NCBI RefSeq assembly: GCF_012974865.1
Contig: NZ_CP043633.1
Coordinates: forward strand, 3,593,501 to 3,657,500
From: Nonlabens sp. Ci31
Lineage (GTDB): Bacteria; Bacteroidota; Bacteroidia; Flavobacteriales; Flavobacteriaceae
Reading direction: 5' to 3'
Length of the DNA stretch: 64,000 nucleotides
The position numbers and the translations under genes are program-made. The stretch's first letter is position 1. The number at the start of each line of letters is the position of its first letter. Below the pieces are notes generated by a model. The model was given only the letters and a program-made list of their open reading frames with translations, was not told the origin of the DNA and did not search any database. This document shows positions 2,867 through 51,682 of the stretch, one piece after another.

Positions 2867-4036
2867 TCAGACTTTAACTACCTCAATAACAATAGCTCCC
2901 AGTTCCTGCGAACTTGTAAAGAATAAATAATTTGTTTCGTGTTCTGAAAATTGGTATTTCTTACGCAGCTGCGCTACTGTTTCTTTGTTGTTGCGGGTGA
3001 CAATTGCTCGAGCACTTTTAGCATAAAGCCTTTTTAATATTTTAGATTTATTTAGAGAAACCTTTTTAATTTCAAAAACGCGACCAGGGAAATCAATTAA
3101 CTTTTCTGAGGTAAACAAGTGGGCATCTTGATCTAGTTTTTGCACTGCATATTGCTGCATTAGGGATGCAAACTGCTGGGATTTCATAACTGCTGCGTTA
3201 GGCTCATACAGGTACTTTTGAGGCTTGGAATAGGTAGCACTAAGCGATGCACCTAGTATGCTTTTAAAAATAGGTTGCTCTGTCAAGAGATTGATGCAGG
3301 TTAAACTGACATGACTTACCTCTTCATTAGTTAAAACCCAAAGCAATTCTTTGACTTCATTTTTTACCGCGACGATATGCAAGGAACTTACTTTTTCTAA
3401 TTGTTTGATACCTGCCGTAATATCCAACATGGGAGAGGTTTTGATCATTAGCCTTTTCCCACTATGGAGTAATAACTCTAAATTTTTAATCACGTTAGGC
3501 TCGTAGTCCTGGAGCAAGATTGCCTTTGTGTGCGTGGCTGTTTTTCTACTGGGATCCAAGTAAATTAAGTCATAAAACTCTTGATTTCCTTTTAAGTATT
3601 GAATTCCGTCACTTTGAAATGACTTTGTTAGAATCCCTTGTACTTGAAAGGAATGTTGCGCGTATTCCTGCACAGATTTAGAGAGCTCTATATGGGTTGT
3701 TGAGGGACACGCTTTCGCGAAAGCGGAAACGTCAATACCAAATCCACCCGTAAGATCAATCATGCTGTCGATCTGATAGAGCTGCGATTTATAGACTGCC
3801 GTGATTTCAGAACTGGTTTGCTCTAAATTCACTTTAGGCGGATACATGATGTGATGATTCTCAAAAAGAGAAGGGAATTTATGACGCGCCTTTTGTAATC
3901 CTACTAATTGCTGTGTAAGCTCCTGATTGGAGAGCTTATCAAAAGGATGCTTCCTGAGCATAAAAGCAGCTGCATTCTCCGGCAAATGAGCTCTTAGATA
4001 AGTGTCCACTTCTGTTCTTATGACAGCCTGATTCAT
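2867..4036 (-). CDS. THUMP-like class I SAM-dependent methyltransferase
   Basis: A 389-residue protein with a Rossmann methyltransferase core: motif I DLTGGFGIDV near residue 95 and a substrate motif reading LIYLDPSRK near residue 155. The C-terminal part resembles the THUMP-like domain of a Bacteroidota family thought to modify RNA; that role is inferred from the family. The ATG abuts the stop codon of the AI-2E gene, so the two are probably co-transcribed. A copy of the dispersed palindrome GCTTTCGCGAAAGC lies inside the gene at 3711-3724 and is read as the residues FAKA just after motif I. Confidence 0.8.
   Translation of the reverse strand: MNQAVIRTEVDTYLRAHLPENAAAFMLRKHPFDKLSNQELTQQLVGLQKARHKFPSLFENHHIMYPPKVNLEQTSSEITAVYKSQLYQIDSMIDLTGGFGIDVSAFAKACPSTTHIELSKSVQEYAQHSFQVQGILTKSFQSDGIQYLKGNQEFYDLIYLDPSRKTATHTKAILLQDYEPNVIKNLELLLHSGKRLMIKTSPMLDITAGIKQLEKVSSLHIVAVKNEVKELLWVLTNEEVSHVSLTCINLLTEQPIFKSILGASLSATYSKPQKYLYEPNAAVMKSQQFASLMQQYAVQKLDQDAHLFTSEKLIDFPGRVFEIKKVSLNKSKILKRLYAKSARAIVTRNNKETVAQLRKKYQFSEHETNYLFFTSSQELGAIVIEVVKV
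3711..3724. repeat. dispersed palindrome copy 1 (inside a gene)
   Basis: Perfect 14-bp palindrome GCTTTCGCGAAAGC with GGAA following on the + strand. It lies within the THUMP-like methyltransferase gene and keeps the reading frame. Confidence 0.9.
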
Positions 4037-5137
4037 CTATAAATTTTGAGTCAGTTTCTTAACAATCTTGTACTCGCTTAAAAACTCCTTAGAGATCACT
4101 TTAATGGCTGTGTACGTAGGCACAGCAAGGACTAACCCAATAATACCAAATAAAATTCCAGCAATAAGAATGATGATAAAAATCTCTAGCGGATGTGATT
4201 TTACACTTTTTCCAAATATCAACGGCTGATTTAAAAAATTATCAATCGCCTGCACAAATCCGTAGCCTATGACTATAATAATTAATTTAGGTAAGATAAT
4301 ATCAGAAAAATTAGATCCTAGGTTATCACTAATCACAAAAGCAGACATCAATACGTATCCTATCGCTGGACCCAAATAAGGCACTAGGTTAAGCAATGCA
4401 CAGAAAAAGGCAATAATTATGGCATTCTCCACTCCTACAATAAATAAAATGATGCTGTACAGAACAAATAAGATAAAGACCTGAAAAACCAGTCCGATAA
4501 AATATCTGGAAAGCAGTTGCTTTATTTTGGTAAATGCTCTTAAAAACTGACCTTCATTTCCTTTTTTAGAAAAGACTAAAACTCCTTCTAATAAAAGACG
4601 ACTGTCCTTAAGAAGGAAAAATGTGATAAATAATATAGAGAATAAACCTATCATAAAACTACCTAAAGTACCAAAGAACCCATTTACAAACTGCGGTATA
4701 AGGTCTATATTCAGGTTTTCATAGTAATCCATTTGTTGAAGCCGTTCTAGAATATTAACTCTTTGAATACCGAAATAATCACTGATTTGTTCGTTGAGAA
4801 TTTCTACATTTATTTGTAACTCTTCAAGATCTATTTGACTTAAATTTTCACTTTGCTCTGTAATCACAGGAATAATCAATAGTATAGCTCCTATAATGAG
4901 CATAAAAAGTATCAATAGAGTCACTATTACGGCTATCGTATTATGAAGTTTCAACCTATCGCGTAATAAAAGTACGATAGGCCTTCCTATGAGTGAAAGT
5001 ACAGCAGCAACACCTATATAAGCTAGCACCGACTGTATTTCCCACAGGAACCATAAAAGGATTAAGATTCCAAAAATAATCCCTAAGGCTCTTAGAATAC
5101 CAAAAGCTATTGATTTTGAATGTACTGCTTTGCTCAT
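4037..5137 (-). CDS. AI-2E family transporter (membrane protein)
   Basis: A 366-residue polytopic membrane protein of the AI-2E/YdiK-PerM family. Two hydrophobic helices at the N terminus are followed by a charged extracytoplasmic segment (about residues 85-140) and then a cluster of membrane helices containing the family-typical stretch LNLVPYLGPAIGY. Family members export small molecules or act as Na+/H+ antiporters; the substrate here is unknown. Only three bases separate it from the DUF4159 gene upstream and none from the methyltransferase downstream, so the three form an operon. Confidence 0.88.
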   Translation of the reverse strand: MSKAVHSKSIAFGILRALGIIFGILILLWFLWEIQSVLAYIGVAAVLSLIGRPIVLLLRDRLKLHNTIAVIVTLLILFMLIIGAILLIIPVITEQSENLSQIDLEELQINVEILNEQISDYFGIQRVNILERLQQMDYYENLNIDLIPQFVNGFFGTLGSFMIGLFSILFITFFLLKDSRLLLEGVLVFSKKGNEGQFLRAFTKIKQLLSRYFIGLVFQVFILFVLYSIILFIVGVENAIIIAFFCALLNLVPYLGPAIGYVLMSAFVISDNLGSNFSDIILPKLIIIVIGYGFVQAIDNFLNQPLIFGKSVKSHPLEIFIIILIAGILFGIIGLVLAVPTYTAIKVISKEFLSEYKIVKKLTQNL

Positions 5138-5140
5138 AGC

Positions 5141-5782
5141 TTAATTGATAAAAACGTATTTGATAATATTTGCTCCCATATCTAGAGCTTTTTTGCGTAC
5201 CTCGGGCGGATCGTTATGTACTTCTGGACTTTCCCATCCATCACCTAAATCACTTTCGTAAGTAAATAACAAAACCAACCTTCCCTCATGAAACAGACCT
5301 TTGGCTTGTGGTCGTTGCCCTTCATGCTCATGTATTTTAGGCAAGCCCTTTGGGAATTTTGCATAAATATTAAAAATAGGATGTGAGGTCGGTAATTCCA
5401 CTAGTTCTTTTTGAGGGAATAATTTAATGAGCTCTTTATTCAGATATGGTTCCATTCCATAATTATCGTCTATGTGAAGAAAACCTCCACTTAAAAGATA
5501 ATTCCTAAGGTTTTGAACATCTGCTTCATTAAAAACAACATTACCATGTCCTGTCATATGAATGAATGGGTACTGAAAGATATCTATACTACTGGATTCA
5601 ACGGTTGCTACCTCTGTATCTAATTGGGTGCCAATAGTATCATTACAATAGGTTATTAAATTAGGAACCGCTGTAGGATTAGCGTACCAGTCGCCACCAC
5701 CGCTGTATTTTAATACCGCTAGTTGTTGTGCATAAATATTATTTAGGAGCAACAAGCAGATAAAAAGAAATGCTTTTTTCAT
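5141..5782 (-). CDS. secreted DUF4159 domain protein
   Basis: A 213-residue protein with a clear signal peptide (MKKAFLFICLLLLNNIYAQ) and a DUF4159 domain, recognisable by GGGDWYANP near the N terminus, MTGHGNV, the block FLHIDDNYG and the C-terminal pattern GWESPEVH. The fold is related to glutamine-amidotransferase-like domains; the biochemical role is unknown. It is the first gene of a leftward cluster with the AI-2E transporter and the methyltransferase, an arrangement I recognise from other Bacteroidota. Confidence 0.85.
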   Translation of the reverse strand: MKKAFLFICLLLLNNIYAQQLAVLKYSGGGDWYANPTAVPNLITYCNDTIGTQLDTEVATVESSSIDIFQYPFIHMTGHGNVVFNEADVQNLRNYLLSGGFLHIDDNYGMEPYLNKELIKLFPQKELVELPTSHPIFNIYAKFPKGLPKIHEHEGQRPQAKGLFHEGRLVLLFTYESDLGDGWESPEVHNDPPEVRKKALDMGANIIKYVFIN

Positions 5783-5880
5783 AGGCTAGCAAATTACAAA
5801 CTTATCTGACATTAATAATTAATGTTGATTATTAATGTTTAAATAAAACATAATTTAATATGATCATAAGGTTAAGTTTT

Positions 5881-5888
5881 TATATTTG
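5881..5888 (+). promoter_or_regulatory. -7 promoter box TATATTTG of the DUF1223 gene
   Basis: Exact TAnnTTTG match ending 22 bases before the ATG at 5911, within the 128-base divergent gap shared with the DUF4159 gene. Confidence 0.55.
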
Positions 5889-5910
5889 ACTGCAACACAT
5901 CCCCTTTGTT

Positions 5911-6675
5911 ATGTATATAGCCCCTTCCTATAAAGTAGTTATTCCCATATTGAGCTTATTCGGAGCTTTAAGTATACTGGCATTTCAACATATTGAAAAC
6001 AGTTCAGAGCCTATTCCAGTAGCTCCACAAAATAATCCTGTCGTTTTAGAGCTTTTTACTTCTCAAAGTTGTCCTACTTGTGAAAATGCTGACATTATTG
6101 TCAATACCATTAAAGATTATGAAAACGTGATCGTTTTGTCATATCATATAGATTACTGGAATCAATTAGGATGGATAGATACATTTTCAGATGCAAACCA
6201 TACCAATTACCAGCGCAAATATGAAAGAAGATTTGATCGCAATTCGTATGCGCCTCAGATGGTGGTGAATGGTAAATCAGAATTTGATGGAACTAATATT
6301 AGGTTGCTTAACGGTTCTTTGAAAAAGCAAAGTACTACAGAGAAACTACTTACCCCTAAAATTTATAGAGAAGAGAATAAATCCGTTAGCGTGTATTACG
6401 ATTTTTTTACAGAAAAAAAATATGATAAAGCTTATGCACTACTTATCATGGATTCTTGTGATGTAGCTATTGATAACGGTCCCAACATAGGTAAAATGAT
6501 GACCAATACTAATATTGTTATAAACCGAGTACCTCTTCAACTGGACAACTCTAAGGGCAATTATACTTTTAAATTACCTCCCAATCTAAAAGAAACTGAT
6601 CAATTTAAAGTGGCTATTATTCTACAGGATAACAACTTGAATATGGTTGGAGCCGCTGTATCTAAGATGCAGTAA
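5911..6675 (+). CDS. DUF1223 family thioredoxin-fold protein
   Basis: A 254-residue protein with an N-terminal hydrophobic segment (about residues 8-25) that anchors or exports it, followed by a DUF1223 domain. The redox motif CPTC lies in LFTSQSCPTCENAD, and the family-typical blocks YHIDYWNQLGW and YAPQMVVNG follow. DUF1223 proteins have a thioredoxin-like fold, but their substrate is not established. The gene is single, has its own promoter box, and its last 14 bases overlap the 3' end of rsmE on the other strand. Confidence 0.85.
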   Translation: MYIAPSYKVVIPILSLFGALSILAFQHIENSSEPIPVAPQNNPVVLELFTSQSCPTCENADIIVNTIKDYENVIVLSYHIDYWNQLGWIDTFSDANHTNYQRKYERRFDRNSYAPQMVVNGKSEFDGTNIRLLNGSLKKQSTTEKLLTPKIYREENKSVSVYYDFFTEKKYDKAYALLIMDSCDVAIDNGPNIGKMMTNTNIVINRVPLQLDNSKGNYTFKLPPNLKETDQFKVAIILQDNNLNMVGAAVSKMQ

Positions 6676-7369
6676 GACTATTAAAAATAGCAGACGTGTA
6701 AACGCCAGCAGTCTCCGTGCGCAACCTTTTGGTTCCTAAAGATGTAGGGATAAAGCCGTTTTTTAAAGCCATTTCTATTTCCATTAATGATAAGTCTCCC
6801 TCTGGACCTATAATCATGGTAAGATCTTGATGTTTATGCAGGAGTTGAGAAAGCATTTTCTTATCCGTTTCTTCACAATGCGCGATACATTTCACTCCTT
6901 TTACGTCAGCTTTTAAGAAATCTGTAAAAGAAGTAAGCTCTTCTAAAACTGGAAGGTAAAATTGATTGCTTTGCTTCATAGCACTGATTAAAATCTTCTG
7001 AAATCGAGCTGTATTTATTTTTTTACGCTCGCTATGTTCACATAATAAAGGAGTTATTTTTGCAATACCTATTTCTGTGGCTTTTTCTAAAAACCACTCC
7101 ATACGATCGTTCATCTTAGTGGGTGCAATAGCGATATGTAACTGTGAAACTGGTAGTGGATACGCTTTCGCTAAAGCGATATCTATATTGCATTTATTAC
7201 TAGTAACAAGACTTATAGTCCCATCATATAAATTTCCTAATCCATCAGTGATATCTACATGATCACCTGCTTTTTTACGCAACACCTTAGTCATGTGCCT
7301 GGCTTGTTCCTTATCAAGCTCAAGGCTGTTAGCTTCTGGAGATATATTTGAATAATAAAATAATTGCAT
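6662..7369 (-). CDS. rsmE: 16S rRNA (uracil-1498-N3)-methyltransferase RsmE
   Basis: A 235-residue SPOUT methyltransferase. Family blocks visible are the N-terminal KEQARHMTKVLRKKAGD, KMNDRMEWFLEKATEIGI in the middle, and the SAM-binding knot IGPEGDLSLMEIEMA followed by LGTKRLRTETAG. It would methylate U1498 of 16S rRNA. Its ATG overlaps the tsaD stop by one base (TAATG), so translation is probably coupled. An imperfect copy of the dispersed palindrome (7163-7178) encodes ALAKA within it. The 3' end overlaps the DUF1223 gene tail to tail. Confidence 0.95.
   Translation of the reverse strand: MQLFYYSNISPEANSLELDKEQARHMTKVLRKKAGDHVDITDGLGNLYDGTISLVTSNKCNIDIALAKAYPLPVSQLHIAIAPTKMNDRMEWFLEKATEIGIAKITPLLCEHSERKKINTARFQKILISAMKQSNQFYLPVLEELTSFTDFLKADVKGVKCIAHCEETDKKMLSQLLHKHQDLTMIIGPEGDLSLMEIEMALKNGFIPTSLGTKRLRTETAGVYTSAIFNSLTAS
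7163..7178. repeat. imperfect copy of the dispersed palindrome (inside rsmE)
   Basis: CGCTTTCGCTAAAGCG differs from the perfect palindrome by one base in the centre. It is in frame and read as ALAKA on the minus strand. Confidence 0.6.
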
Positions 7370-15301: not shown

Positions 15302-15315
15302 GCTTTCGCGAAAGC
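15302..15315. repeat. dispersed palindrome copy 2
   Basis: GCTTTCGCGAAAGC followed by GGG, in the divergent gap between recF and the TPR gene. Confidence 0.9.
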
Positions 15316-17546: not shown

Positions 17547-18266
17547 TTAGGCGTTGAAATACTTAGAATTCCAGATAGCTGTATTAAAATTCTTTCCTGC
17601 TGCAAAAGAATAATACAATACCATAGCAGCAATTGACTTAAACGTAAAAAAGAAAATCAATAAAAACTCCACTCCTGTTGGGTTCTTTGAAAAGATGCCA
17701 TTAGGAATTAAATAGGCAGCTAATAGGCTCACCAGAACAGTAGAAAAAATTAGGTTTTCAAAACTCTTAAAATTCCATGCCCATATCTTTCTAAAGGCAT
17801 TTAAATCATTTCCCCACTTGTGAATCAAATAAAAGTATCCATTCCCTATAGGAGCAAAAAGAAGCGGGTCATCGGCATTTTCTAGTTTGAACAATTTTGA
17901 TGGCGCAACGATTTTAAAACCTCTCATTTCTAGGTCGTGGGCTTTTTCCATATCTTTAATTTTCATCAAAGCCTCGTAAGGAATCTCATTTTTAAAGTAT
18001 TTGGTATCCAAAAATCTAAGACGATAAGTAACACAAATATCTCGTATTTGATCTATGTGATAAATGCGATCTGTTTCTAAAAGATCAATATTAAAATGAT
18101 TGCGAGGAGTCGGCTTCTGCGGGCTTTTCATACGCGCCATGATATCATCTTCCTTGCGATCTTCTTCTTTTAGAATAGCCGTTACCTGATCAAGAATATC
18201 GTTGCCTTTAAAAGCTTTTGCTTTAGACTTCCTGAGTTTATCTTCAATATTGGTGCGTTTCAACAT
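17547..18266 (-). CDS. hypothetical membrane protein
   Basis: A 239-residue protein. The first 140 residues are soluble and charged (DKLRKSKAKAFKGNDIL, later a run around YHIDQIRDICVTYRLRFLDTKYF), the C-terminal third has two membrane helices (about 167-185 and 200-222). I do not recognise a domain. It is a single gene with its own strong terminator; probably conserved in Flavobacteriia, but I cannot confirm this. Confidence 0.65.
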   Translation of the reverse strand: MLKRTNIEDKLRKSKAKAFKGNDILDQVTAILKEEDRKEDDIMARMKSPQKPTPRNHFNIDLLETDRIYHIDQIRDICVTYRLRFLDTKYFKNEIPYEALMKIKDMEKAHDLEMRGFKIVAPSKLFKLENADDPLLFAPIGNGYFYLIHKWGNDLNAFRKIWAWNFKSFENLIFSTVLVSLLAAYLIPNGIFSKNPTGVEFLLIFFFTFKSIAAMVLYYSFAAGKNFNTAIWNSKYFNA

Positions 18267-18386: not shown

Positions 18387-18400
18387 GCTTTCGCGAAAGC
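18387..18400. repeat. dispersed palindrome copy 3
   Basis: GCTTTCGCGAAAGC followed by GGAA, between two leftward small-membrane-protein genes. Confidence 0.9.
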
Positions 18401-21370: not shown

Positions 21371-21384
21371 GCTTTCGCGAAAGC
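21371..21384. repeat. dispersed palindrome copy 4
   Basis: GCTTTCGCGAAAGC followed by GGAA, in the divergent gap upstream of pheT. Confidence 0.9.
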
Positions 21385-21516: not shown

Positions 21517-21661
21517 AGGACAATGGCATCAAAAGTAGAGCGCAGCGATGCAAATTAATTTTCCCCTTTGGGGAAATGGCCGCGAGGACAATGGCATCAA
21601 AAGTAGAGCGCAGCGATGCAAATTAATTTTCCCCTTTGGGGAAATGGCCGCGAGGACAATG
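21517..21661. repeat. 68-bp tandem duplication
   Basis: Two identical 68-bp units at 21517-21584 and 21585-21652, followed by nine bases of a third. Each unit contains a small hairpin, TTTCCCCTTTGGGGAAA. It lies 60 bases before the sirtuin ATG. The in-frame extension of the sirtuin into this repeat is not believable as protein. Confidence 0.9.
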
Positions 21662-21720
21662 AGGCCTACCTTGCCATAATTATACCTAAAAACCTTATTT
21701 TTATACCTAAAACAATTCCT

Positions 21721-22395
21721 ATGAAAAATCTAGTCGTACTCTCTGGAGCTGGCGTCAGCGCCGAAAGTGGTATTTCAACCTTTAGAGATGCTGGCGGACT
21801 TTGGGAAGGACACGATATTATGGAAGTGGCTTCTCCTGAAGGATTTTCAGCTAACCCTACTCTAGTGCTCGATTTTTACAATAAACGCCGGGCGCAACTG
21901 CATCAAGTAGCGCCTAATAAAGCGCATTTTTGTATTGCTGGACTGGAACACAATTACCAAGTGCACGTGATCACACAAAATGTAGATGACCTTCATGAAC
22001 GCGCTGGGTCATCTCAAGTAACACATCTTCATGGTGAGTTGAAAAAATCACGTAGTTCTGAGAACAGTCTTGAGATTCAAGAATGCCATGGCGACATTAA
22101 TTTAGGTGATTTAAGTCCAGATGGATCGCAACTGCGTCCACATATTGTATGGTTTGGAGAGGAAGTTCCTGCCATGGATCAAGCCATAGAAATCGTATCA
22201 AAAGCAGATGTCTTGCTCATTGTAGGAACCTCCATGCAAGTATATCCAGCGGCTGGACTTAAAGATTTTGCTCCCAGTACTACACCCATTTATTTTGTAG
22301 ATCCAGCACCCTCTTTAGATTCTCACGGTAGACTTACTGTAATTAAAGAAAAAGCAGGGAAAGGAGTTCAAATGGTGGCCGATTTAATTTCTTAA
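21721..22395 (+). CDS. cobB: Sir2-family NAD-dependent protein deacylase (CobB-like)
   Basis: A 224-residue sirtuin. Seen: the NAD site GAGVSAESGISTFRDAGGLW at the N terminus, TQNVDDLHERAG, catalytic HLHGEL and the C-terminal VGTSMQVYPAAGL. The four Cys that hold zinc in most sirtuins are absent from the segment after HLHGEL (KKSRSSENSLEIQ); short Bacteroidota sirtuins commonly look like this. The frame is open further upstream through a tandem repeat, but MKNLVVLSG is the family start. A 125-residue zinc-ribbon-like protein follows after nine bases. Confidence 0.92.
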   Translation: MKNLVVLSGAGVSAESGISTFRDAGGLWEGHDIMEVASPEGFSANPTLVLDFYNKRRAQLHQVAPNKAHFCIAGLEHNYQVHVITQNVDDLHERAGSSQVTHLHGELKKSRSSENSLEIQECHGDINLGDLSPDGSQLRPHIVWFGEEVPAMDQAIEIVSKADVLLIVGTSMQVYPAAGLKDFAPSTTPIYFVDPAPSLDSHGRLTVIKEKAGKGVQMVADLIS

Positions 22396-29265: not shown

Positions 29266-30045
29266 TTGTTTCACTTTATATTTGCTTACTTTTCTCACCT
29301 CATCAAGTCATTTCACTTGCATGGCATTCACTCGCCTTTTGTTTTCCAATTGGAAAAAAAGTGCCTTAGGGATGCCAGTCCTTATGCAGATTATTTAAAA
29401 TTGTCTCGCTTTCGCGAAAGCTTACATAACAACAAAAGCAGCTTACACATAGAAGATCACGGTGCAGGAAGTAGGGTTTTTAAATCTAATGACAGAAAGG
29501 TAACCGACATTCTCCAGCACAATTGCAGTACAGAAAAAGACACGCAATTGCTTTACCGATGGTGTAGTTATTTTGAAGTAAATACAGTTCTGGAATTAGG
29601 CACCTCTTTAGGAATAGCGACTCATGCCATGGCAACCGCAAGACCGCATGCACAAATTACAACGGTAGAAGGAAGTCCTGAGGTTTATGAATTTGCAAAA
29701 AAAGCCCTTGAGAAAGAAGACCTGAAACAGGTGAACTTTGTGAATGCTACCTTTCAAGATTTCTTTAAAGAGCAAAAGACCCCTGCTCCTATTTACGACT
29801 TGATTTATATCGATGGACATCACAATGGCGACGCTACCTGTTTTTACTTCGAGAGCATTTTGCATCAGGTACATAATGATACCGTCGTGATCTTTGATGA
29901 TATTTACTGGTCTGCCGACATGACTCGTGCGTGGAATCAAATTTGCCATCATCCTCAGGTGACGGCAAGCGTGGACTGTTTTGATTTTGGACTGATTTTC
30001 TTTAGAAAAGAACAGATGCAGGAGCAATTTTATGTGAAGTTGTAA
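29266..30045 (+). CDS. class I SAM-dependent (O-)methyltransferase
   Basis: A 259-residue protein. Motif I VLELGTSLGIATHAMA near residue 108, then TVEGSPEVYEFA and a metal-site-like YIDGHHNGDATCFYFE, as in O-methyltransferase-fold proteins. The N-terminal HGIHSPFVFQLEKKCL is typical of a Bacteroidota family. The frame begins at TTG 29266 with no ATG; a TATATTTG box at 29277-29284 would instead favour TTG 29317. A palindrome copy lies inside (29408-29421) and is read as SRFRES. Confidence 0.75.
   Translation: MFHFIFAYFSHLIKSFHLHGIHSPFVFQLEKKCLRDASPYADYLKLSRFRESLHNNKSSLHIEDHGAGSRVFKSNDRKVTDILQHNCSTEKDTQLLYRWCSYFEVNTVLELGTSLGIATHAMATARPHAQITTVEGSPEVYEFAKKALEKEDLKQVNFVNATFQDFFKEQKTPAPIYDLIYIDGHHNGDATCFYFESILHQVHNDTVVIFDDIYWSADMTRAWNQICHHPQVTASVDCFDFGLIFFRKEQMQEQFYVKL
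29408..29421. repeat. dispersed palindrome copy 5 (inside a gene)
   Basis: GCTTTCGCGAAAGC in frame within the methyltransferase gene. Unlike most copies it is not followed by GGAA. Confidence 0.9.
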
Positions 30046-32225: not shown

Positions 32226-33854
32226 TTATGTCTGTATGATACCAAGATTAAAATCCTTGGTAATAGGAGCGTGATTTGCCGCTTCTATTCCCATAGAAAT
32301 CCATTTTCTTGTATCTCTAGGATCGATGATCGCATCGGTCCAGATTCTAGAAGCTGCGTAATAAGGAGAGACTTGTTTATCATAACGGTCTTTTGTTTTG
32401 GCAAACAATGCTTTCTCTTCTTCTTCCGTTAGTTTTTTACCCGCTTTTTCTAGGGATGCTTTTTCTATTTGCATCAATACTTTTGCCGCACTATTACCAC
32501 TCATTACAGCAAGCTCTGCCGTAGGCCATGCAACTATTAATCGTGGATCATATGCTTTACCGCACATCGCATAATTTCCTGCCCCATAGCTATTCCCTAT
32601 AATAACCGTAAACTTGGGAACGACTGAGTTAGAAACAGCATTTACCATCTTTGCTCCATCTTTGATAATACCGCCATGTTCTGATTTAGAACCCACCATA
32701 AAACCTGTAACATCTTGTAAAAAGACTAAAGGAATTTTCTTTTGATTACAATTAGCTATAAATCTCGTTGCTTTATCGGCACTATCGCTATAAATCACAC
32801 CCCCAAATTGCATTTCGCCTTTCTTTGTTTTGACGATTTTTCTTTGATTAGCTACTATACCAACAGCCCAACCATCCATACGAGCATAACCCGTAATTAA
32901 GGTCTGTCCATAACCATCTTTATAAGCCTCAAAAGAACCTGCATCTACCATGCGATTAATGAGTTCCATCATGTCGTATTGTGCATTGCGCGCTCTAGGA
33001 AGCGCGCCAAATAAGCCTTCTGGATCTAGTTCGGGCTTCTTAGTATCTACTCTATTAAAACCAGCGGTATCACTAGCACCTATTTTATCAAAAATCTTTT
33101 TGATCTTATCAAGTGCGTCTTTATCGTCTTTTGCTTTGTAATCAGTTACCCCGCTGATCTCGCAATGCGTTGTGGCACCACCTAAGGTTTCATTATCAAT
33201 TGTTTCTCCTATAGCTGCTTTGACTAAGTAAGAACCCGCTAAGAAAATACTTCCTGTCTTATCAACGATCAATGCTTCATCACTCATGATAGGGAGGTAA
33301 GCGCCACCGGCTACACAACTACCCATAACCGCAGCTATTTGAGTAATTCCCATACTACTCATTACCGCATTATTTCTAAAAATACGGCCGAAGTGTTCTT
33401 TATCTGGAAATATCTCATCCTGCAAAGGCAAATAAACTCCTGCACTATCTACAAGATAAATAATCGGCAGTCTGTTTTCTATAGAGATTTCTTGAGCGCG
33501 TAGGTTTTTCTTTCCTGTAATAGGAAACCAGGCACCCGCTTTTACGGTCGCATCATTTGCAACAACAATAACTTGTCTACCTTGAACATATCCTATTTTC
33601 ACCACAACACCACCGCTCGGGCAACCACCGTGTTCTTCATACATTCCGTCACCTGCAAAAGCAGCAATTTCTATACAATCTTCAGGCTTATCAACGAGGT
33701 AATCAATGCGTTCACGGGCAGTCATTTTGCCTTTTTCATGTAGTTTCTCCACGCGTTTTTTTCCGCCTCCTAAGGCAACTTGCGCAAACTTTCTTCTCAG
33801 GTCAGAAAGCAGCATTTTATTGTGATCTTCGTTTTTATTGAAGTCTAAATCCAT
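32226..33854 (-). CDS. acyl-CoA carboxylase carboxyltransferase (beta) subunit
   Basis: A 542-residue carboxyltransferase that moves CO2 from biotin to an acyl-CoA. Two crotonase-fold halves are visible: an N-terminal half with EEHGGCPSGGVVVKIG, GSCVAGGAYLP and LGGATTHCEISGVTDY, and a C-terminal half with FLQDVTGFMVGSKSEHGGI and GNSYGAGNYAMCG. The sequence looks closest to methylcrotonyl-CoA carboxylases of leucine breakdown; propionyl-CoA specificity cannot be excluded. No biotin-carrying alpha subunit gene is next to it. Confidence 0.88.
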   Translation of the reverse strand: MDLDFNKNEDHNKMLLSDLRRKFAQVALGGGKKRVEKLHEKGKMTARERIDYLVDKPEDCIEIAAFAGDGMYEEHGGCPSGGVVVKIGYVQGRQVIVVANDATVKAGAWFPITGKKNLRAQEISIENRLPIIYLVDSAGVYLPLQDEIFPDKEHFGRIFRNNAVMSSMGITQIAAVMGSCVAGGAYLPIMSDEALIVDKTGSIFLAGSYLVKAAIGETIDNETLGGATTHCEISGVTDYKAKDDKDALDKIKKIFDKIGASDTAGFNRVDTKKPELDPEGLFGALPRARNAQYDMMELINRMVDAGSFEAYKDGYGQTLITGYARMDGWAVGIVANQRKIVKTKKGEMQFGGVIYSDSADKATRFIANCNQKKIPLVFLQDVTGFMVGSKSEHGGIIKDGAKMVNAVSNSVVPKFTVIIGNSYGAGNYAMCGKAYDPRLIVAWPTAELAVMSGNSAAKVLMQIEKASLEKAGKKLTEEEEKALFAKTKDRYDKQVSPYYAASRIWTDAIIDPRDTRKWISMGIEAANHAPITKDFNLGIIQT

Positions 33855-33913: not shown

Positions 33914-33927
33914 GCTTTCGCGAAAGC
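33914..33927. repeat. dispersed palindrome copy 6
   Basis: GCTTTCGCGAAAGC, extended to a perfect 20-bp palindrome (33911-33930), between two divergent genes. Confidence 0.9.
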
Positions 33928-33969: not shown

Positions 33970-35133
33970 ATGAAAAAAATACCTTGCCTCATTTTTATTC
34001 TATTCCTTGTAAGTTGCTCTGGATTATCTAAAATTTTTAATAACGGAACCCTAACCAACATTGATTATAAAGAAATCATACCTTTTAATTATGATTATAA
34101 CTATGCGATTGTTGAAGTAGAGATTAATTCTATAAAATATAACTTTCTAGTGGATACCGGAGCGCCTACTGTTATTTCCAATGCTATTTATGAAGACTTA
34201 AAAATAGAAGCGATAGATTATATTGCTATTGAAGATTCTCAAGGACAAATTAATAGTCAAAAAGTAGTAGTCGTTCCAGAAATAAAAATAGGGAACCTGA
34301 CGTATCATAACACAGGTGGTGTTGTAGCCGATTTGAGGAATGTTTTTGAGTTTGATTGCATGGGAATAGATGGTATCATAGGTTCTAATCAAATGGCAAA
34401 ATCCTATTGGAAATTTGATTATCAAAATCGTGAAATTACCATAACCGACCAACTTGCTCATTATGACTTAACCACCTATACGGATACACTTTCATTTATA
34501 GTGTCTGCTAGTAAAACACCGTATTTGCGAGGTCATGTAAATGGATTAGAGACTCTATTTGTTTATGATACAGGTTTTGGCGGTCATATAGACATTGATA
34601 GAGAACTAGCCGAATTTAAAGAAGCAGATGGATTTACGAATTATGGCAATTCTGGTATAGGTCTTTATGGAGTTATAGATTCTACAACCATAAGAACTAT
34701 AAAAACAGATAGTTTGAGAATAGGCTCTATTGAAATGGGCGCGCAAGTGGTGGATTTAGATTTTGGTAACCTGATAGGAAACAAATTCATGAATAAACAC
34801 GACGTAGTTATGGACTGGACGTCTCAGAAAATCTACCTCAAAAAACTAAAAGAATTTGAAAAAACACAGCAAAACTCTTTTGGCTTTAAATTTAGAATTA
34901 AAGAGAATAAAGCGCTAGTAACTGGATTGATAGAAGAGTTTGCTATTGACCTACAGTTAGGTGATGTCCTCTTATCTATAAATGATTTTGAGTTTAAAAA
35001 TATAACCGATAGCAATGCTTGTGAGAAATGGAATGCTATTAATTATAAAGATGTAGAAAATTTGAAGATTGTCTATTTACGAGATGGCATTGAATTGACA
35101 ACTACTTTAAAAATACGAGAACTTATAAAATAA
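33970..35133 (+). CDS. retropepsin-like aspartyl protease lipoprotein with PDZ domain
   Basis: A 387-residue protein with lipobox LFLVSC (Cys about residue 16). Two aspartyl-protease half sites are present: FLVDTGAPTVIS near residue 60 and FVYDTGFGGHID near residue 198. The C-terminal ~80 residues look like a PDZ fold (LVTGLIEEFAIDLQLGDVLL). Members cleave or bind peptides in the periplasm; the substrate is unknown. Single gene; a dispersed palindrome lies just upstream. Confidence 0.8.
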   Translation: MKKIPCLIFILFLVSCSGLSKIFNNGTLTNIDYKEIIPFNYDYNYAIVEVEINSIKYNFLVDTGAPTVISNAIYEDLKIEAIDYIAIEDSQGQINSQKVVVVPEIKIGNLTYHNTGGVVADLRNVFEFDCMGIDGIIGSNQMAKSYWKFDYQNREITITDQLAHYDLTTYTDTLSFIVSASKTPYLRGHVNGLETLFVYDTGFGGHIDIDRELAEFKEADGFTNYGNSGIGLYGVIDSTTIRTIKTDSLRIGSIEMGAQVVDLDFGNLIGNKFMNKHDVVMDWTSQKIYLKKLKEFEKTQQNSFGFKFRIKENKALVTGLIEEFAIDLQLGDVLLSINDFEFKNITDSNACEKWNAINYKDVENLKIVYLRDGIELTTTLKIRELIK

Positions 35134-35303: not shown

Positions 35304-36944
35304 TTATACCTCTGCGTCTAGTAAATCAGTTGCAATATGATACCGTGGATCTTCAATACTAGTTTCAATAATCGTGTCAAATTCTGGATTGTGACGCATC
35401 AACAATTCTTTACATTCTGGGCTTAAATGCGTGAGTTTTATTTCTTTCCCTAGATCCAGATATTTATTTGCTACACCTCTTAGAGCCTCAATACCAGAAT
35501 GATCTTGTACACGTGATTCTATAAAGTCTATTTCTATTTTATCAGGATCGTTTTTAGGGTCAAATTTCTTATTAAAATCAGTTACCGAACCAAAGAATAA
35601 CGGTCCCCAAATCTCGTAGACTTTAGTTCCATCTTCTTTAATGCTTTTGCGAGCTCTAATGCGTTTGGCACTTTCCCAAGCAAATACTAATGCAGAAATA
35701 ATAACTCCTACAAATACAGCTATAGCAAGATCAAAAACGACTGTCACTACAGATACAATCACTAAAACAACCGCGTCAGATTTAGGTATTTTACCCAAAA
35801 TCCTAAAACTAGACCAGGCAAAGGTCTCAATAACCATCATAAACATCACTCCTATCAAAGCAGCGATAGGCACTTGCTCGATAAGTTTATCTGTAAACAA
35901 TAGAAAGGTTAATAAGGTCACCGACATCATTACACCAGATAAACGACCTCGTCCACCAGCATTGATATTAATTACGGTCTGACCTATCATACCACACCCA
36001 CCTGTACCACCAAAGAGTCCACTAATGATATTTCCTGCTCCTTGAGCGACACATTCTCGGTTACCGCTACCCCTAGTTTCTGTTAATTCATCTACTAGAT
36101 TCATGGTCATTAAAGATTCAATAAGACCTACAGCAGCTGCAAGAAATGCATAGGGCAAAATAAATAAAAAGGTATCATAACCTATAGGTAAATTCTCCCA
36201 AAGCTCCATATTAGGCGTTGGAATCTCCCCTTTCAATCCAGTTCCACCACCTTCTATGATATAGGATCCTACCGTACTTGCATCCATACCGCCAAAAACA
36301 ACTACCGTCGTTGTGACCAATATTGCCGTAAGTGCCGCTGGAATTTTTTTAGTCAATTTAGGTAATAACCATATAATCGCCATAGTTAAAGCAACCAGAC
36401 CTATCATGATCCACAACTCTGTTCCCTGCATATAAGTGGAAATGTATTTATCCACACCATCTGCTCCTACTTCTAGTTTTTTATGCGTAAACATTTTTAC
36501 TTGTGCGATAAAAATTACAATCGCCAAACCGTTTACAAATCCCATCATCACCGGATGCGGAATCAATCGAACAAATTTCCCGATTTTAAAAACACCTGCC
36601 AAAATCTGAATCAGTCCCATAAGAATCACAGCACCGAAGAGGTAATAAAAACCCATATTCTCCACTGGCGTTTCCATCAACATTCCTCTCTCATGACCTT
36701 TGATAATCAAATCCACAAAAATAACAGCCACTGCTCCAGCAGCTCCAGAAATCAATCCAGGTCTACCTCCGAAAAGTGCTGTAATCAAACCAATAATAAA
36801 GGCACCAGAAAGCGCTACTAATGGATCTATTCCCGCCACAAATGCAAAGGCAACCACCTCTGGAATCATCGCTAGAGAAACAGTAATTCCCGCTAGAATA
36901 TCGTCCTTCGGATTTTTAGTGAAATTATTGAAGATCTTGCGCAT
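35304..36944 (-). CDS. SulP family inorganic anion transporter with STAS domain
   Basis: A 546-residue membrane protein with about 12-14 helices (residues 10-430). Typical SulP blocks are ILAGITVSLAMIPEVVAFAF at the N terminus and GGTGGCGMIGQTVININAGG near residue 315. A cytoplasmic STAS-like domain follows (about 440-546). SulP proteins carry sulfate, bicarbonate or other anions; substrate not deducible here. Single gene. Confidence 0.92.
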   Translation of the reverse strand: MRKIFNNFTKNPKDDILAGITVSLAMIPEVVAFAFVAGIDPLVALSGAFIIGLITALFGGRPGLISGAAGAVAVIFVDLIIKGHERGMLMETPVENMGFYYLFGAVILMGLIQILAGVFKIGKFVRLIPHPVMMGFVNGLAIVIFIAQVKMFTHKKLEVGADGVDKYISTYMQGTELWIMIGLVALTMAIIWLLPKLTKKIPAALTAILVTTTVVVFGGMDASTVGSYIIEGGGTGLKGEIPTPNMELWENLPIGYDTFLFILPYAFLAAAVGLIESLMTMNLVDELTETRGSGNRECVAQGAGNIISGLFGGTGGCGMIGQTVININAGGRGRLSGVMMSVTLLTFLLFTDKLIEQVPIAALIGVMFMMVIETFAWSSFRILGKIPKSDAVVLVIVSVVTVVFDLAIAVFVGVIISALVFAWESAKRIRARKSIKEDGTKVYEIWGPLFFGSVTDFNKKFDPKNDPDKIEIDFIESRVQDHSGIEALRGVANKYLDLGKEIKLTHLSPECKELLMRHNPEFDTIIETSIEDPRYHIATDLLDAEV

Positions 36945-37002: not shown

Positions 37003-37016
37003 GCTTTCGCGAAAGC
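37003..37016. repeat. dispersed palindrome copy 7
   Basis: GCTTTCGCGAAAGC, extended to a perfect 22-bp palindrome (36999-37020), between two divergent genes. Confidence 0.9.
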
Positions 37017-37092: not shown

Positions 37093-38337
37093 ATGTGTCG
37101 CAGTTCTTTCTTCTTATCAAATGGGTATGTATGTCTTAGCTTATGGGCAGTCCTATTTTCTAACATCGTATGCCTCGCACAAAAGGATTCCTTAACGGTA
37201 GACGTTAATGGGCTGTTAAAACCACATCTCGCGTCTACGCATCATTTTGGATTATTTTCTTCTCGCATGACGCAAAATTTTAAAGCGCGCGCGAGTACTA
37301 GCCCTCAACTGCATCTAGAAACTCAATCAGGAAATAATTTTCATGCTCCTGTACAGGCATTTCTTCCAGATGACCCAGAGTTACGAGCCCAATTTGCCGA
37401 CCAAACCTGGTATTTTAGAGTCTTTGATTTTGTAGATCAAGAAACGACTCCTGCACAGATAATGGACATTGAAATCGATGCGGTTTACAAAATCTATCGC
37501 CCGGCACTCACCTTGCCTTTAAACGATCATAATGAGATAAGAATAGGCTTGAGAGCTTTTCAAACAGTAAAAGGTGATTTCTTTGACTCCCCTTTTACCA
37601 ATGATGAATCTATTGAATGGTTTCACAGCAATATTGCTGGTGGTGAAGATCCTTTTGGTAGGAAATTTTATGGTGTGAATGAAGTGGCTGTGAATTACAC
37701 AGACCGCAATGGCAAGAGGTTGAATATGCAAGCTGGAGATATCATTCTAGGAGGTCTCGAACTGGCACACACTTATTATCCTCAATTAGAAAAATGGAAC
37801 GAGCGCCATCTTTTTTTTAACTTACAATCACAGATAGGCTGGAACACCAGTGCCTATAATAACTCACTGGACTTAGGGATAGGAATCAATACTATAAAAA
37901 AATACAACTTAAACACTAGAAGTAATCTTTGGTTCGGTTTGGGATATAGTGTGCTGTATAAAAATGCTATCGATGGAAGTGACAACCTCGATCTGGGAAA
38001 CAACCGGTTTTTAGGTTCTGGAGAAGTCATGGCACAATGGACCCATCAAACCTCAAAAGGCCACCAAAACATCATCGGGCTGAATTATCAAAATCAAACC
38101 TCTTACTTTAAAAAGGAAGAAGCGAACTATTTTCACCTCAAAGGAAATTATGCAGCCATCAACCAAGGATGGCATTATGGCTACACCACGCTTATTGAAA
38201 ATTTAAGCAGCTGGTCTATGTTATACACGCATGCACGACCTAAGATATCGTATACCATTTATGTCAAAGAGGACCTTAATGTCAATAATGCCCCAGATGT
38301 AGAGACAGGTATTTCTGTGCAAATTCCATTTTACTAA
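37093..38337 (+). CDS. secreted, probably outer-membrane beta-barrel protein
   Basis: A 414-residue protein with a signal-like N terminus (hydrophobic residues 13-28, cleavage likely near CLAQ) and a body of amphipathic strands rich in Asn, Tyr and Gly (for example LGLGYSVLYKNAIDG-like strands), ending with an aromatic residue (QIPFY), as outer-membrane barrels do. I do not recognise the family. The signal could also start at a later codon. Confidence 0.55.
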   Translation: MCRSSFFLSNGYVCLSLWAVLFSNIVCLAQKDSLTVDVNGLLKPHLASTHHFGLFSSRMTQNFKARASTSPQLHLETQSGNNFHAPVQAFLPDDPELRAQFADQTWYFRVFDFVDQETTPAQIMDIEIDAVYKIYRPALTLPLNDHNEIRIGLRAFQTVKGDFFDSPFTNDESIEWFHSNIAGGEDPFGRKFYGVNEVAVNYTDRNGKRLNMQAGDIILGGLELAHTYYPQLEKWNERHLFFNLQSQIGWNTSAYNNSLDLGIGINTIKKYNLNTRSNLWFGLGYSVLYKNAIDGSDNLDLGNNRFLGSGEVMAQWTHQTSKGHQNIIGLNYQNQTSYFKKEEANYFHLKGNYAAINQGWHYGYTTLIENLSSWSMLYTHARPKISYTIYVKEDLNVNNAPDVETGISVQIPFY

Positions 38338-47950: not shown

Positions 47951-47958
47951 CAAAAATA
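47951..47958 (-). promoter_or_regulatory. -7 promoter box TATTTTTG of rpmI-rplT
   Basis: TAnnTTTG match on the minus strand giving a leader of about 130 bases before rpmI. A long leader here fits ribosomal autoregulation, but I did not identify an L20-binding structure. Confidence 0.45.
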
Positions 47959-48145: not shown

Positions 48146-48177
48146 AAAAGACTGTCTCTTTATAGAGACAGTCTTTT
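48146..48177 (-). terminator. hairpin terminator after infC
   Basis: A perfect 13-bp stem (AAAAGACTGTCTC with GAGACAGTCTTTT, 6-base loop), followed by T6 on the minus strand. It separates thrS-infC from rpmI-rplT. Confidence 0.85.
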
Positions 48178-48252
48178 CTATTTATCCTTTAAGTACTTTT
48201 TGCTAGACATGATTAATGATGCCTACTTAAAGGCTGCACTTATGGGAGTAAC

Positions 48253-48804: not shown

Positions 48805-48820
48805 GACTATATAATTTTAA

Positions 48821-50815
48821 TTAAACTTCAAATGTTTTTATAGTTTCAGAGATTTCTTTTTGAACAAGTTCTGCAAAAGCTGCAACACTCATACTTCCCA
48901 GATCCTCTCCACCATGTTTTCTTACAGAAATAGTGCCTTCTTTTTCTTCCTGCTCACCTACGATAAGCATATACGGCAATTTGTTCATCTCTGCCTCACG
49001 GATTTTTTTACCCATGGTTTCTGCACGGTTGTCAACTGTTGTGCGAATTTCGTTAATTTCTAACAAATTTGCTACTTGTTTAGCATAATTTTCGTATTTC
49101 TCACTGAGAGATAAGATAGCACACTGCTCAGGCATCAACCATAGCGGGAAATTCCCACCGGTATGTTCTAATAATATGGCAATAAAACGTTCCATACTAC
49201 CAAAAGGCGCACGATGTATCATTACTGGTCTATGTGACTCATTATCAGCACCCTTATACAGCAAATCAAAACGTTCTGGTAAATTGTAATCTACCTGTAT
49301 AGTACCCAATTGCCAGCTTCTACCTAGGGCATCCTTGACCATAAAGTCTAATTTAGGACCATAAAAGGCAGCTTCACCTTCTTCAATCACATAATTGAGA
49401 CCTTTATCATTTGCAGCGCTAATAATTGCATTTTCTGCAATTTCCCAATTCTTAACATCCCCAATATATTTTTCTGGCTTTTTGGGGTCACGAATACTCA
49501 CCTGCGCGGTAAAGTTTTCAAATCCTAATGAACCGAAAACATACATGACGAGGTCTATAACTGCTTTAAATTCTTTATCTAATTGTTCTGGCATACAGAA
49601 AATATGCGCATCATCCTGAGTAAATCCGCGTACACGTGTCAATCCATGAAGTTCACCACTTTGCTCGTATCTATAAACCGTACCAAATTCTGCAAAACGC
49701 TTCGGTAAATCTCTATACGACCACTGTGCACTTTTATAAATTTCACAGTGATGTGGGCAGTTCATCGGCTTCAATAAAAACTCTTCATCATCGTTAGGCG
49801 TTTTTATAGGCTGGAAAGAATCTGCTCCGTACTTTTCATAATGACCAGACGTCACATACAATTCCTTAGAACCTATATGTGGAGTCACCACCATTTCATA
49901 ACCCGCTTTTTTCTGAGCTGCTTTTAGGAAATTCTCTAATCGCTCGCGCAGAGCGGCACCTTTAGGCAACCATAAAGGAAGTCCTTGACCTACTCGTTGA
50001 GAAAAAGTAAACAACTGTAATTCTTTACCTAATTTTCTATGATCACGTTTTTTTGCTTCTTCTAGTAATTCCAGGTATTCTTTTAAGTCCTTTTGCTTAG
50101 GAAAAGAAGTACCGTACAAACGAGTAAGTTGTGGATTATTTTCATCTCCACGCCAGTAAGCACCGGCTATACTCATTATTTTTACTGCCTTGATAATTCC
50201 TGTATTAGGAACATGACCACCGCGACATAAATCTGTAAACGTATCCTGATCACAAAAAGTGATCTCACCATCCGTTAGGTTTTCTATCAGCTCTACTTTA
50301 AATGGATTGTTTTGATCCTTATAGAATTTTATCGCATCAGTTTTAGAGACACTGCGCATCGTAAACTCATGTTTTCCCCGTGCTATTTCTAACATGCGAG
50401 CCTCTATTTTAGGGATATCAGTCTCAGAAATAGAATGCTCTTTAAAATCTATATCGTAATAGAATCCATTATCAATTGCAGGTCCTATGGTCAGACTTAC
50501 TCCAGGAAACAATTCCTCTATAGCTTGTGCCATAAGGTGAGAGGTAGAATGCCAGAAAGCCTCTTTCCCTTCAGGATTGCTAAACGTAAAAAGAACCAAG
50601 CTACCATCTTCTTTTAGAGGTGTTTTGGTTTCTACTTTTTTACCGTTAAAACTAGCGCTGATCACACTACGGGCAAGTCCGTGTGATATACTCATAGCGA
50701 CATCCATAGGAGTGGTACCGCTTTCCATTTCTTTGATACTGCCGTCGGGCAAAGTGATTTTAATCATAGCTACAAAATATGAATCGGTAAAGGTAAAACC
50801 TTTATATAAAATCAC
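48821..50815 (-). CDS. thrS: threonine-tRNA ligase
   Basis: A 664-residue class II synthetase. N-terminal TGS domain (KITLPDGSIKEMESGTTPMD, from about residue 19), then the second additional domain with editing residues (HSTSHLMAQAI), a catalytic core with CPHHCEIYKS and RFAEFGTVYRYEQSGELHGL, and the anticodon-binding domain (about 560-664). The annotated start precedes the second Met (MIKITLPDG, about residue 17), which is the likelier start (50767). infC follows by 16 bases. Confidence 0.97.
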   Translation of the reverse strand: MILYKGFTFTDSYFVAMIKITLPDGSIKEMESGTTPMDVAMSISHGLARSVISASFNGKKVETKTPLKEDGSLVLFTFSNPEGKEAFWHSTSHLMAQAIEELFPGVSLTIGPAIDNGFYYDIDFKEHSISETDIPKIEARMLEIARGKHEFTMRSVSKTDAIKFYKDQNNPFKVELIENLTDGEITFCDQDTFTDLCRGGHVPNTGIIKAVKIMSIAGAYWRGDENNPQLTRLYGTSFPKQKDLKEYLELLEEAKKRDHRKLGKELQLFTFSQRVGQGLPLWLPKGAALRERLENFLKAAQKKAGYEMVVTPHIGSKELYVTSGHYEKYGADSFQPIKTPNDDEEFLLKPMNCPHHCEIYKSAQWSYRDLPKRFAEFGTVYRYEQSGELHGLTRVRGFTQDDAHIFCMPEQLDKEFKAVIDLVMYVFGSLGFENFTAQVSIRDPKKPEKYIGDVKNWEIAENAIISAANDKGLNYVIEEGEAAFYGPKLDFMVKDALGRSWQLGTIQVDYNLPERFDLLYKGADNESHRPVMIHRAPFGSMERFIAILLEHTGGNFPLWLMPEQCAILSLSEKYENYAKQVANLLEINEIRTTVDNRAETMGKKIREAEMNKLPYMLIVGEQEEKEGTISVRKHGGEDLGSMSVAAFAELVQKEISETIKTFEV

Positions 50816-50976
50816 CCTTAATTAATCAAACAGTTTTAGACGTTTTTAAGTAGCTTTTAGATCTTGATAAATTAATGGAACTTCAAATAAGTATTACTTC
50901 CACCTTTAGAAGAAACACTAGACGGAAAGCTAGAGCTTTTATATGTTGAAATAGCATGCTATTTCCCCTCTTGTGA

Positions 50977-51126
50977 TCAGGCTTTTAATTCTTTATAACG
51001 ATAAAGATACCTTCCATTTTGAACAGAAAAATGTTTTGTCATTAATTGATATTTGCGTTCTCCACCTCCTAATGGAGCAGAAATAAAAACTTTAATTTTT
51101 AATTTCAGATTTGATATTTTAATCAT
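50977..51126 (-). CDS. 49-residue small protein of unknown function
   Basis: An ATG-started frame ending at TGA 50977: MIKISNLKLKIKVFISAPLG, then GGERKYQLMTKHFS and NGRYLYRYKELKA. The composition is protein-like (mixed, basic) and the codons are unlike the flanking non-coding DNA. It fills most of the otherwise empty 392-base gap between thrS and the next gene. Nothing else was seen in the gap. It could be a remnant rather than a gene. Confidence 0.45.
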   Translation of the reverse strand: MIKISNLKLKIKVFISAPLGGGERKYQLMTKHFSVQNGRYLYRYKELKA

Positions 51127-51217
51127 TCTGGACGCTTTCCACTGAAACAAACAAATAAAAGAAAAAACTTTACAGGATAAATGGCGCGCACTTTGATAAT
51201 GTCTTTAAAACCTTATT

Positions 51218-51634
51218 ATGAAAAAGCTATTACTTCTTACAGCAGCTGTTCTAATTTTGACCAATTGCGATTCCTGGACGGACTGTATCATCAATAATGG
51301 ACCACAACTCAATCAGCGTGTTTTTGTCACAGGTTTTTCTAACGTTTATTATGAGGACAGTTTAAATGCTGAAATTAACAATGATCCACAAGATAACAAC
51401 TACTACTATTATTTTTCAGTACGTGGATTGCCTCGCGGGATGGATTATGAGTCTGAAGGTCGTGAGCTCTTTATTTATGGAACGCCTCAAGAATCTGGTC
51501 GTTTTAACTTAGAAGTATACCTCCATGTAGAAGCCGCGATACTTTATTACGATGAAAATGATGGCCCATTTGAAGATGGAGATACCCTTTGTAAGGACAG
51601 TACCAGCAGGTTGTATACATTAACCATTCAATAA
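51218..51634 (+). CDS. hypothetical lipoprotein with Ig-like fold
   Basis: A 138-residue protein with lipobox LILTNC (Cys about residue 17) and three further Cys in the mature part. FSVRGLPRGMDYESEGRELF followed by IYGTPQESGRFNL matches the putative-Ig (He_PIG) pattern of 'LPxGL...G.ISGTP...G.Y'. Probably exposed at the cell surface; binding partner unknown. Single gene. Confidence 0.7.
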   Translation: MKKLLLLTAAVLILTNCDSWTDCIINNGPQLNQRVFVTGFSNVYYEDSLNAEINNDPQDNNYYYYFSVRGLPRGMDYESEGRELFIYGTPQESGRFNLEVYLHVEAAILYYDENDGPFEDGDTLCKDSTSRLYTLTIQ

Positions 51635-51668
51635 GGCTTGTGTCAGGTCGCATACTGGTTGGAATTCC

Positions 51669-51682
51669 GCTTTCGCGAAAGC
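51669..51682. repeat. dispersed palindrome copy 8
   Basis: GCTTTCGCGAAAGC, extended to a perfect 22-bp palindrome (51665-51686), between the lipoprotein and helicase genes. Confidence 0.9.

Follow-up and report, generated by a model that had tools for sequence, protein, structure and literature searches.

Hundreds of copies of a 14-bp palindrome in Nonlabens chromosomes: a possible docking site for chromosome maintenance

Why should one stretch of a flavobacterial chromosome hold the same 14-bp palindrome eight times over? The question is raised by a 64-kb stretch of Nonlabens sp. Ci31 (genome positions 3593501-3657500; "the window" below denotes this whole stretch), in which the exact palindrome GCTTTCGCGAAAGC occurs in eight perfect copies, all of them at the coordinates given by an earlier reading of the DNA made without database searches (the sequence-only reading). 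When up to two mismatches are allowed the window contains 10 matches, against 0.13 expected and a maximum of 2 in 100 dinucleotide shuffles. The whole genome, a single contig of 3,740,082 bases, carries 487 copies, whereas a control word of identical letters, the 14-mer reversed, is absent from it, which marks the motif as a real feature of this chromosome. Closer counts were made in an own-genome sample of 1.264 Mb, comprising 60 stretches of 20 kb and the window, which holds 171 perfect copies, 36 with one mismatch and 19 with two; of 60 shuffled palindromes made from the same half-site letters, none had a perfect copy or more than a single one-mismatch copy. The string TTTCGCGAAA occurs 180 times in this sample, 171 of them within the full motif, and 6-bp half-site words are not enriched outside the motif, so that both halves seem to be needed. 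Of the inner words, TCGCGA (1.11x) and CGCG (1.00x) are at expectation outside the motif and those of 8-12 bp are still enriched there, as near copies of the motif would produce. No description of the 14-mer was found in the literature searched, which mostly did not extend to subscription papers; the accessible part of the RepRanger paper does not mention Nonlabens, and the string TTTCGCGAAA was met only in papers that are off topic to judge from their titles and the beginnings of their abstracts.

The 14-mer forms the core of a two-fold symmetric element of approximately 74 bp. On the 5' side of the core some 30 bp of each strand are rich in G and T and poor in C, and T is preferred at positions -3, -6, -9 and -12, a pattern that intergenic copies display as well. 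Immediately next to the core, C occupies position 0 in 88% of sites and G position 15 in 84%. At 74 coding and 44 divergent sites alike this skew reaches out to about 30 bp, and one-mismatch copies still have flanks like those of perfect sites. Neither matched control positions within those genes nor divergent spacers lacking the motif show the skew, and the idea that the composition of divergent spacers merely happens to suit the motif was accordingly dropped. Other Nonlabens and genome G250 show the same flank pattern, and genome G234 (both genomes are introduced below) shows it more weakly. Mirrored flank positions exhibit no excess of pairing over independent columns, the summed z score for covariation being -1.4 for 170 sites, -0.8 for 63 intergenic sites and 0.9 for 80 sites of other Nonlabens, and the symmetry is consequently that of two independent half-sites and not that of a folded strand. 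A hairpin or RNA element was likewise considered, and two results speak against it: this lack of covariation, and the fact that nothing in the window matches an Rfam family at gathering score. Coding sites favour frame 0 (63 of 108), in which the T/A peaks would fall at third codon positions.

Genes were called with a home-made dicodon model, with which gene starts are approximate; an earlier, stricter caller gave the same order of density for divergent and codirectional spacers, with convergent spacers below coding DNA. The 171 sampled sites are divided among predicted genes (108), codirectional (35), divergent (22) and convergent (3) spacers and stretch ends (3). When spacers of 150-300 bp from this genome and other Nonlabens are pooled, 27 sites are found in 72 divergent, 24 in 168 codirectional and none in 39 convergent spacers, counts that are not fully independent as some of the other loci are orthologous to each other and to the window; for this genome alone the figures are 13 in 52, 15 in 129 and none in 31, respectively. 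The last 120 nt of Nonlabens genes have 0.061 sites per kb. Convergent spacers of all lengths contain 6 sites in 164, which is not the 3'-end location of a terminator.

Copies are also spaced more evenly than expected at random. The coefficient of variation of the gaps is 0.68 both in the Ci31 genome (first 100 of 487 positions) and in the motif-rich genome G004 (61 listed positions), compared with 0.99 and 0.98 at random, and gaps below 1.5 kb number 2 against 17.5 expected and 4 against 20.4 expected, respectively. Sites occur at a density of one per 3.6-7.7 kb, and an intergenic site is no more than 1.5 kb away for only 4.2% of 71 coding sites, compared with 18.4% of random coding positions. 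The 60 samples, in which origin and terminus were placed by GC skew only, reveal no origin-to-terminus trend (29, 28, 23, 27, 32 and 24 sites per ten 20-kb samples along the chromosome), and no strand bias was seen in the 1.264-Mb sample. Codon score, a proxy for expression, shows no clear difference between genes that have a site and those that do not (P 0.20). Four of the 60 stretches lack a site altogether. The proteins of three of these were scanned in part. In one (L217, genome positions 498673-518672) they include a ResIII-type helicase, an aminotransferase of class V and a 1073-residue protein with no Pfam hit at E 1e-8; this stretch resembles acquired DNA and may be a defence island. 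In the two others, peptidases and one outer-membrane protein were identified.

That both halves are needed, that the flanks are symmetric but do not covary and that even spacing continues across gene borders all argue for a site that is required at intervals and bound by a two-fold symmetric complex. The absence of a strand or origin-to-terminus preference, and the few copies in short convergent spacers, lead in the same direction. The function that we predict, tentatively and with a little under even confidence, is a docking site at which a symmetric DNA-binding complex serves chromosome maintenance. Such a complex would bind the double-stranded core and, with each of its halves, also read some 30 bp of the keto-rich (G/T) flank. 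Folding, segregation or repair of the chromosome, not control of the adjacent gene, would require such a binding point every few kb. Sites would be kept preferentially where a bound protein least disturbs transcription, the preference for divergent spacers thus reflecting avoidance of conflict with transcription, and would be filled in inside genes where no suitable spacer is near. A nucleoid or segregation site was among the candidates named by the sequence-only reading and survives as the best candidate class of explanation. Noc, SlmA, MatP and ParB-type proteins similarly act chromosome-wide through dimer-type palindromes, which measure 12-16 bp. Those sites, however, occur in tens of copies that are biased to or away from the terminus or origin, whereas the Nonlabens element is present in hundreds of copies, shows no origin or terminus trend, and is accompanied by no extra chromosomal ParB in the motif-rich genomes searched.

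Several observations weigh against this prediction. No binding protein was found among the candidates searched (ParB-family, RAYT, pilus ATPase, ComEC and AddB), and motif-rich genomes, like many motif-poor ones, encode ParB only once on the chromosome: one match was obtained in five of the six motif-rich genomes searched, and the second match of the sixth (G014) is of a 616-residue kind also present in motif-poor genomes. As no extra chromosomal ParB is present in these carriers, a Noc-like ParB paralogue is not supported as the binder. Spacers of 300-600 bp show little contrast (8 sites in 34 divergent, 6 in 91 codirectional and 4 in 35 convergent spacers); G234 has no divergent preference (2 sites in 11.8 kb of divergent and 4 in 16.5 kb of codirectional spacer), and the intergenic sites of G250 (4, 9 and 1) are too few to judge it. 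The first 120 nt of Nonlabens genes hold 0.212 sites per kb compared with 0.082 beyond, which would also fit a regulator; a role confined to the chromosome does not predict the motifs with host-like flanks that occur in some phage contigs; and a keto-rich 5' flank with a 3-bp rhythm is equally well suited to loading of a single-strand or RecA-type protein. It is possible, if on balance doubtful, that the element represents a new class of palindromic, chromosome-wide site of about 74 bp and several hundred evenly spaced copies, recognised by a protein unrelated to ParB/Noc, SlmA or MatP, that organises or protects the chromosome and may serve as a bidirectional recombination-loading site, the 3-bp rhythm resembling that of RecA-type filaments.

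Comparison with other Nonlabens indicates that individual sites differ in age. PheT of the window has its closest named relatives in Nonlabens (90% identity to that of N. xylanidelens), and the site 41-43 bp from the pheT start codon is shared by the window and six of the seven other Nonlabens loci that hold this spacer (L009, L010, L011, L012, L013 and L061); the seventh, L014, has no copy upstream of pheT and a site inside the gene instead. The site 46-47 bp from the start of recF is present in the window and in all four other Nonlabens loci that hold recF (L009, L010, L011 and L014), and L014 retains it despite a RecF identity of 76%. The gene next to the site at 18387 is present in eight loci: L010 and L011 have a perfect copy at this place, L009 has one with a single mismatch, and the remaining five show no perfect counterpart. 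Two coding sites lie at matching offsets in L012 and L014. Some sites are thus old, while others turn over.

The palindrome is shared by relatives, the 22 of 22 Nonlabens congeners searched carrying 288-857 copies each and none of the control word. In a sample of 397 Flavobacteriaceae genomes at least one match is present in 80, and the only genomes besides Nonlabens that are rich in the motif are G234 (408 copies) and G250 (857), each the sole member of its genus there; the next counts are 19, 17 and 16, and all others have nine or fewer. A phylum-wide sample of 296 genomes includes 16 with a match, none above four copies except Ci31 itself. The motif of G234 is less sharp, with 23 perfect, 10 one-mismatch and 12 two-mismatch copies in 200 kb. 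In a PheT tree G234 and G250 fall together, and a single clade with Nonlabens is neither shown nor rejected (approximately unbiased (AU) test, p 0.33). An AddB tree places the three motif-rich genera together with G188 on one side of a branch (support 87) and rejects them as a clade without it (AU p 0.03). As far as these trees go, one old origin followed by loss and two separate origins would both be compatible with them. No palindrome of comparable excess was found in 1.54 Mb pooled from other named genera, where each genus contributes only a small pool and weaker excesses do occur; in 0.27 Mb of other family genomes (containing runs of N) the sole comparable palindrome is GCTTTCGCGAAAGC itself, with four copies in an island of G033.

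Among the alternatives, the strongest rival is a palindromic, bidirectional Chi-like signal, at whose core the AddAB helicase-nuclease, reading either strand, would cease to degrade and on whose G/T-rich 3' tail, 5' of the core, RecA would be loaded; we consider it rather unlikely. Its strength lies in the position of the G/T-rich tract, which on both strands extends to about 30 nt on the 5' side of the core, at the place where an enzyme regulated by Chi would put RecA on the DNA. An AddB-like PD-(D/E)XK protein (PF12705, in frames of about 900-1000 residues) is present in 26 of 26 genomes searched, copies are evenly spaced, and the chromosome-wide density is near that of Chi in E. coli. Known Chi words are, however, short, asymmetric and not palindromic, and a Chi model gives no reason for the preference for divergent over convergent spacers or the scarcity in short convergent ones. 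Nor does the AddB tree, with regard to a shared and transferred AddB as the reader of the signal, unite the motif-rich genomes alone, though it has them on one side of a branch once G188 is included, and a second, AddA-like PF12705 match was not found in the four Nonlabens searched, G131 and G024, though it is present in most others (AddA was not searched for further). Another possibility, which appears unlikely, is a self-recognition sequence for DNA uptake, spread by biased gene conversion in natural transformation. Even spacing, a high ratio of perfect to near copies, and a ComEC domain in 29 of 29 genomes, motif-rich or not, would fit. Uptake signal sequences (USS) and DNA uptake sequences (DUS) resemble the element in that their copies are nearly identical, number in the hundreds and show base preferences outside the core. 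Known uptake words, however, are non-palindromic and act through pilus proteins (see also PMC12616744, in its accessible part), whereas the ATPase of the pilus and type II secretion system (PF00437) is below cut-off in eight of nine motif-rich genomes, G004 alone having one. This only weakens the explanation, because 17 of 20 motif-poor genomes also lack a PF00437 match above cut-off (three have it) and competence here may not use a pilus ATPase. Intergenic sites in Nonlabens moreover avoid 3' ends and short convergent spacers, unlike the words of Neisseria and Haemophilus. Self-preference does exist in related bacteria: according to the accessible part of the source, Riemerella columbina, described as a member of the Flavobacteriaceae, prefers its own DNA, with an uptake word not established (PMC7965970).

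It is quite unlikely that a global transcription regulator uses the element as its operator. In favour of this are the excess of sites in divergent spacers and upstream of genes, and the constant distance of 41-47 bp to the pheT and recF starts across species. A plain regulator is weakened by the majority of sites inside genes and by a spacing rule that operates over kilobases, since local control does not explain why coding sites avoid intergenic ones. The core is also far less variable than regulator sites usually are. A fixed spacing to a promoter box was tested and is not supported, the distance to the TAnnTTTG box being variable. The recognition word of an orphan DNA methyltransferase, in the manner of highly iterated palindrome 1 (HIP1), is very unlikely. 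The motif is a palindrome with CG steps repeated throughout a genus, and 10 of the 36 one-mismatch copies are C-to-T or G-to-A changes at the outer bases of the central CGCG. The restriction or methylation target proposed by the sequence-only reading is nevertheless weakened by inner words that, outside the motif, are either at expectation or enriched only in the manner of near copies, and known methylase words are far shorter than a contiguous target of 14 bp flanked by 30 bp on either side. As described in the accessible part of PMC4390886, HIP1 (GCGATCGC) of cyanobacteria is similarly one palindromic word, strongly over-represented across a lineage and of unsettled function. HIP1 is 8 bp long and tied to orphan methyltransferases of its inner words; the Nonlabens element has 14 bp with flanks of about 30 bp on each side, and its inner words TCGCGA and CGCG are not enriched. 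Spread as a mobile palindromic repeat by a REP-associated tyrosine transposase (RAYT) or similar enzyme, akin to the spreading element also suggested at first, is extremely improbable. Y1 transposase domains are found in five of nine motif-rich genomes, with seven in that of Ci31, and, as with repetitive extragenic palindromes (REPs), bacterial interspersed mosaic elements (BIMEs) and REP doublets forming hairpins (REPINs), the repeats are palindromic and many lie in spacers. The remaining four motif-rich genomes, G004 (762 copies), G007 (752), G022 (634) and G234, have no Y1/RAYT match, so that a steady RAYT link is lacking; there is no conserved repeat body, only degenerate flanks; no compensated stem-loop is apparent from covariation; most copies lie in predicted genes; and orthologous positions and even spacing are maintained.

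The motif is also encountered on metal-resistance DNA of other genera and on phage or prophage DNA. In other genera small clusters of 4-7 copies occur within some 10-90 kb, partly in one family of heavy-metal and copper-resistance DNA that encodes RND efflux systems, a multicopper oxidase and a P-type ATPase and is common to stretches of different genomes at 71-99.97% identity (99.97% over 20 kb between G259 and G204). Resistance loci with the palindrome are L345 (G259), L364 (G204), L347 (G122), L349 (G131), L353 (G145) and L356 (G390), and all of these except L356 possess a pair of copies 933 bp apart; at L352 the resistance DNA adjoins a TraG-type conjugation gene. A flank score above 5 is attained by 32 of 49 scorable sites in resistance and other stretches of motif-poor genomes, compared with 138 of the 171 Ci31 sites on which the score was trained, and 99% of random genomic positions score below 3.7. 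At least 132 exact copies in viral contigs could be scored, of which 22 (16 distinct sequences) exceed 5 among the matches listed. IMG/VR contigs L174, L109, L123, L127 and L201 carry the motif with host-like flanks, L195 and L198 sharing sites with L174, and some motif-bearing viral contigs encode portal, capsid, terminase, tape-measure or baseplate genes. These metagenomic phage or prophage contigs may derive from viruses that infect motif-rich hosts. The cultured Nonlabens phages P12024S and P12024L, which are close relatives (35.7 kb each), contain no copy, even with up to two mismatches.

Copies in the window are listed in Table 1. As the sequence-only reading had stated, two perfect copies (3711 and 29408) are inside open reading frames (ORFs) and add the residues shown, the other six being intergenic according to the ORF list, and none of the eight is followed by the T run of a usual terminator. 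The imperfect copy exists and has one mismatch, but begins one base to the right of the position 7163 first assigned to it. The window counts for the outer arms were also right, GGAA following six of the eight copies and TTCC preceding three, yet the preferred orientation that this had suggested does not hold in the larger sample: 29 of the 171 sites have GGAA only, 32 TTCC only, 9 both and 101 neither, and no departure from symmetry is apparent. Genome-wide density and occurrence in relatives, the other checks that this reading had named, both came out in favour of a real feature. Other repeated structures are present as well. A stem-loop, TTTCCCCAAAGGGGAAA, is found twice in the window (Table 1), and a second long palindrome, GCCTGCCGGCAGGC, is rarer, with six copies in the 1.264-Mb sample.

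Table 1. Positions of the palindromic core and of a stem-loop in the window
Feature	Coordinates	Strand	Context
Perfect core	3711..3724	.	Inside ORF 2867-4036 (-); reads AFAKA
One-mismatch core (GCTTTCGCTAAAGC)	7164..7177	.	Inside ORF 6662-7369 (-); reads ALAKA
Perfect core	15302..15315	.	Divergent spacer upstream of recF, 46 bp from start codon
Perfect core	18387..18400	.	Upstream of ORF 17547-18266 (-)
Perfect core	21371..21384	.	Divergent spacer upstream of pheT, 43 bp from start codon
Stem-loop, twice, 68 bp apart	21560-21644		Spacer and start of ORF 21616-22395
Perfect core	29408..29421	.	Inside methyltransferase-like ORF 29266-30045 (+); reads FRES
Perfect core, TTCC/GGAA arms	33914..33927	.	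Divergent spacer, 32226-33854 (-) / 33970-35133 (+)
Perfect core, TTCC/GGAA arms	37003..37016	.	Divergent spacer, SulP-type transporter 35304-36944 (-) / 37093-38337 (+)
Perfect core, TTCC/GGAA arms	51669..51682	.	Spacer upstream of DEAD-box helicase 51789-53072 (+)

Few sequences are known around which a whole bacterial chromosome is built. The element described here is unusually sharp, with 14 invariant bases and symmetric flanks, and is found in few of the sampled genera, cultured Nonlabens species among them. Any mechanism that may be proposed has to satisfy two quantitative constraints, the even spacing of the copies and their rarity in short convergent spacers. The heavy-metal resistance DNA found in other genera suggests that the motif may in addition serve to tag DNA originating from motif-rich bacteria.

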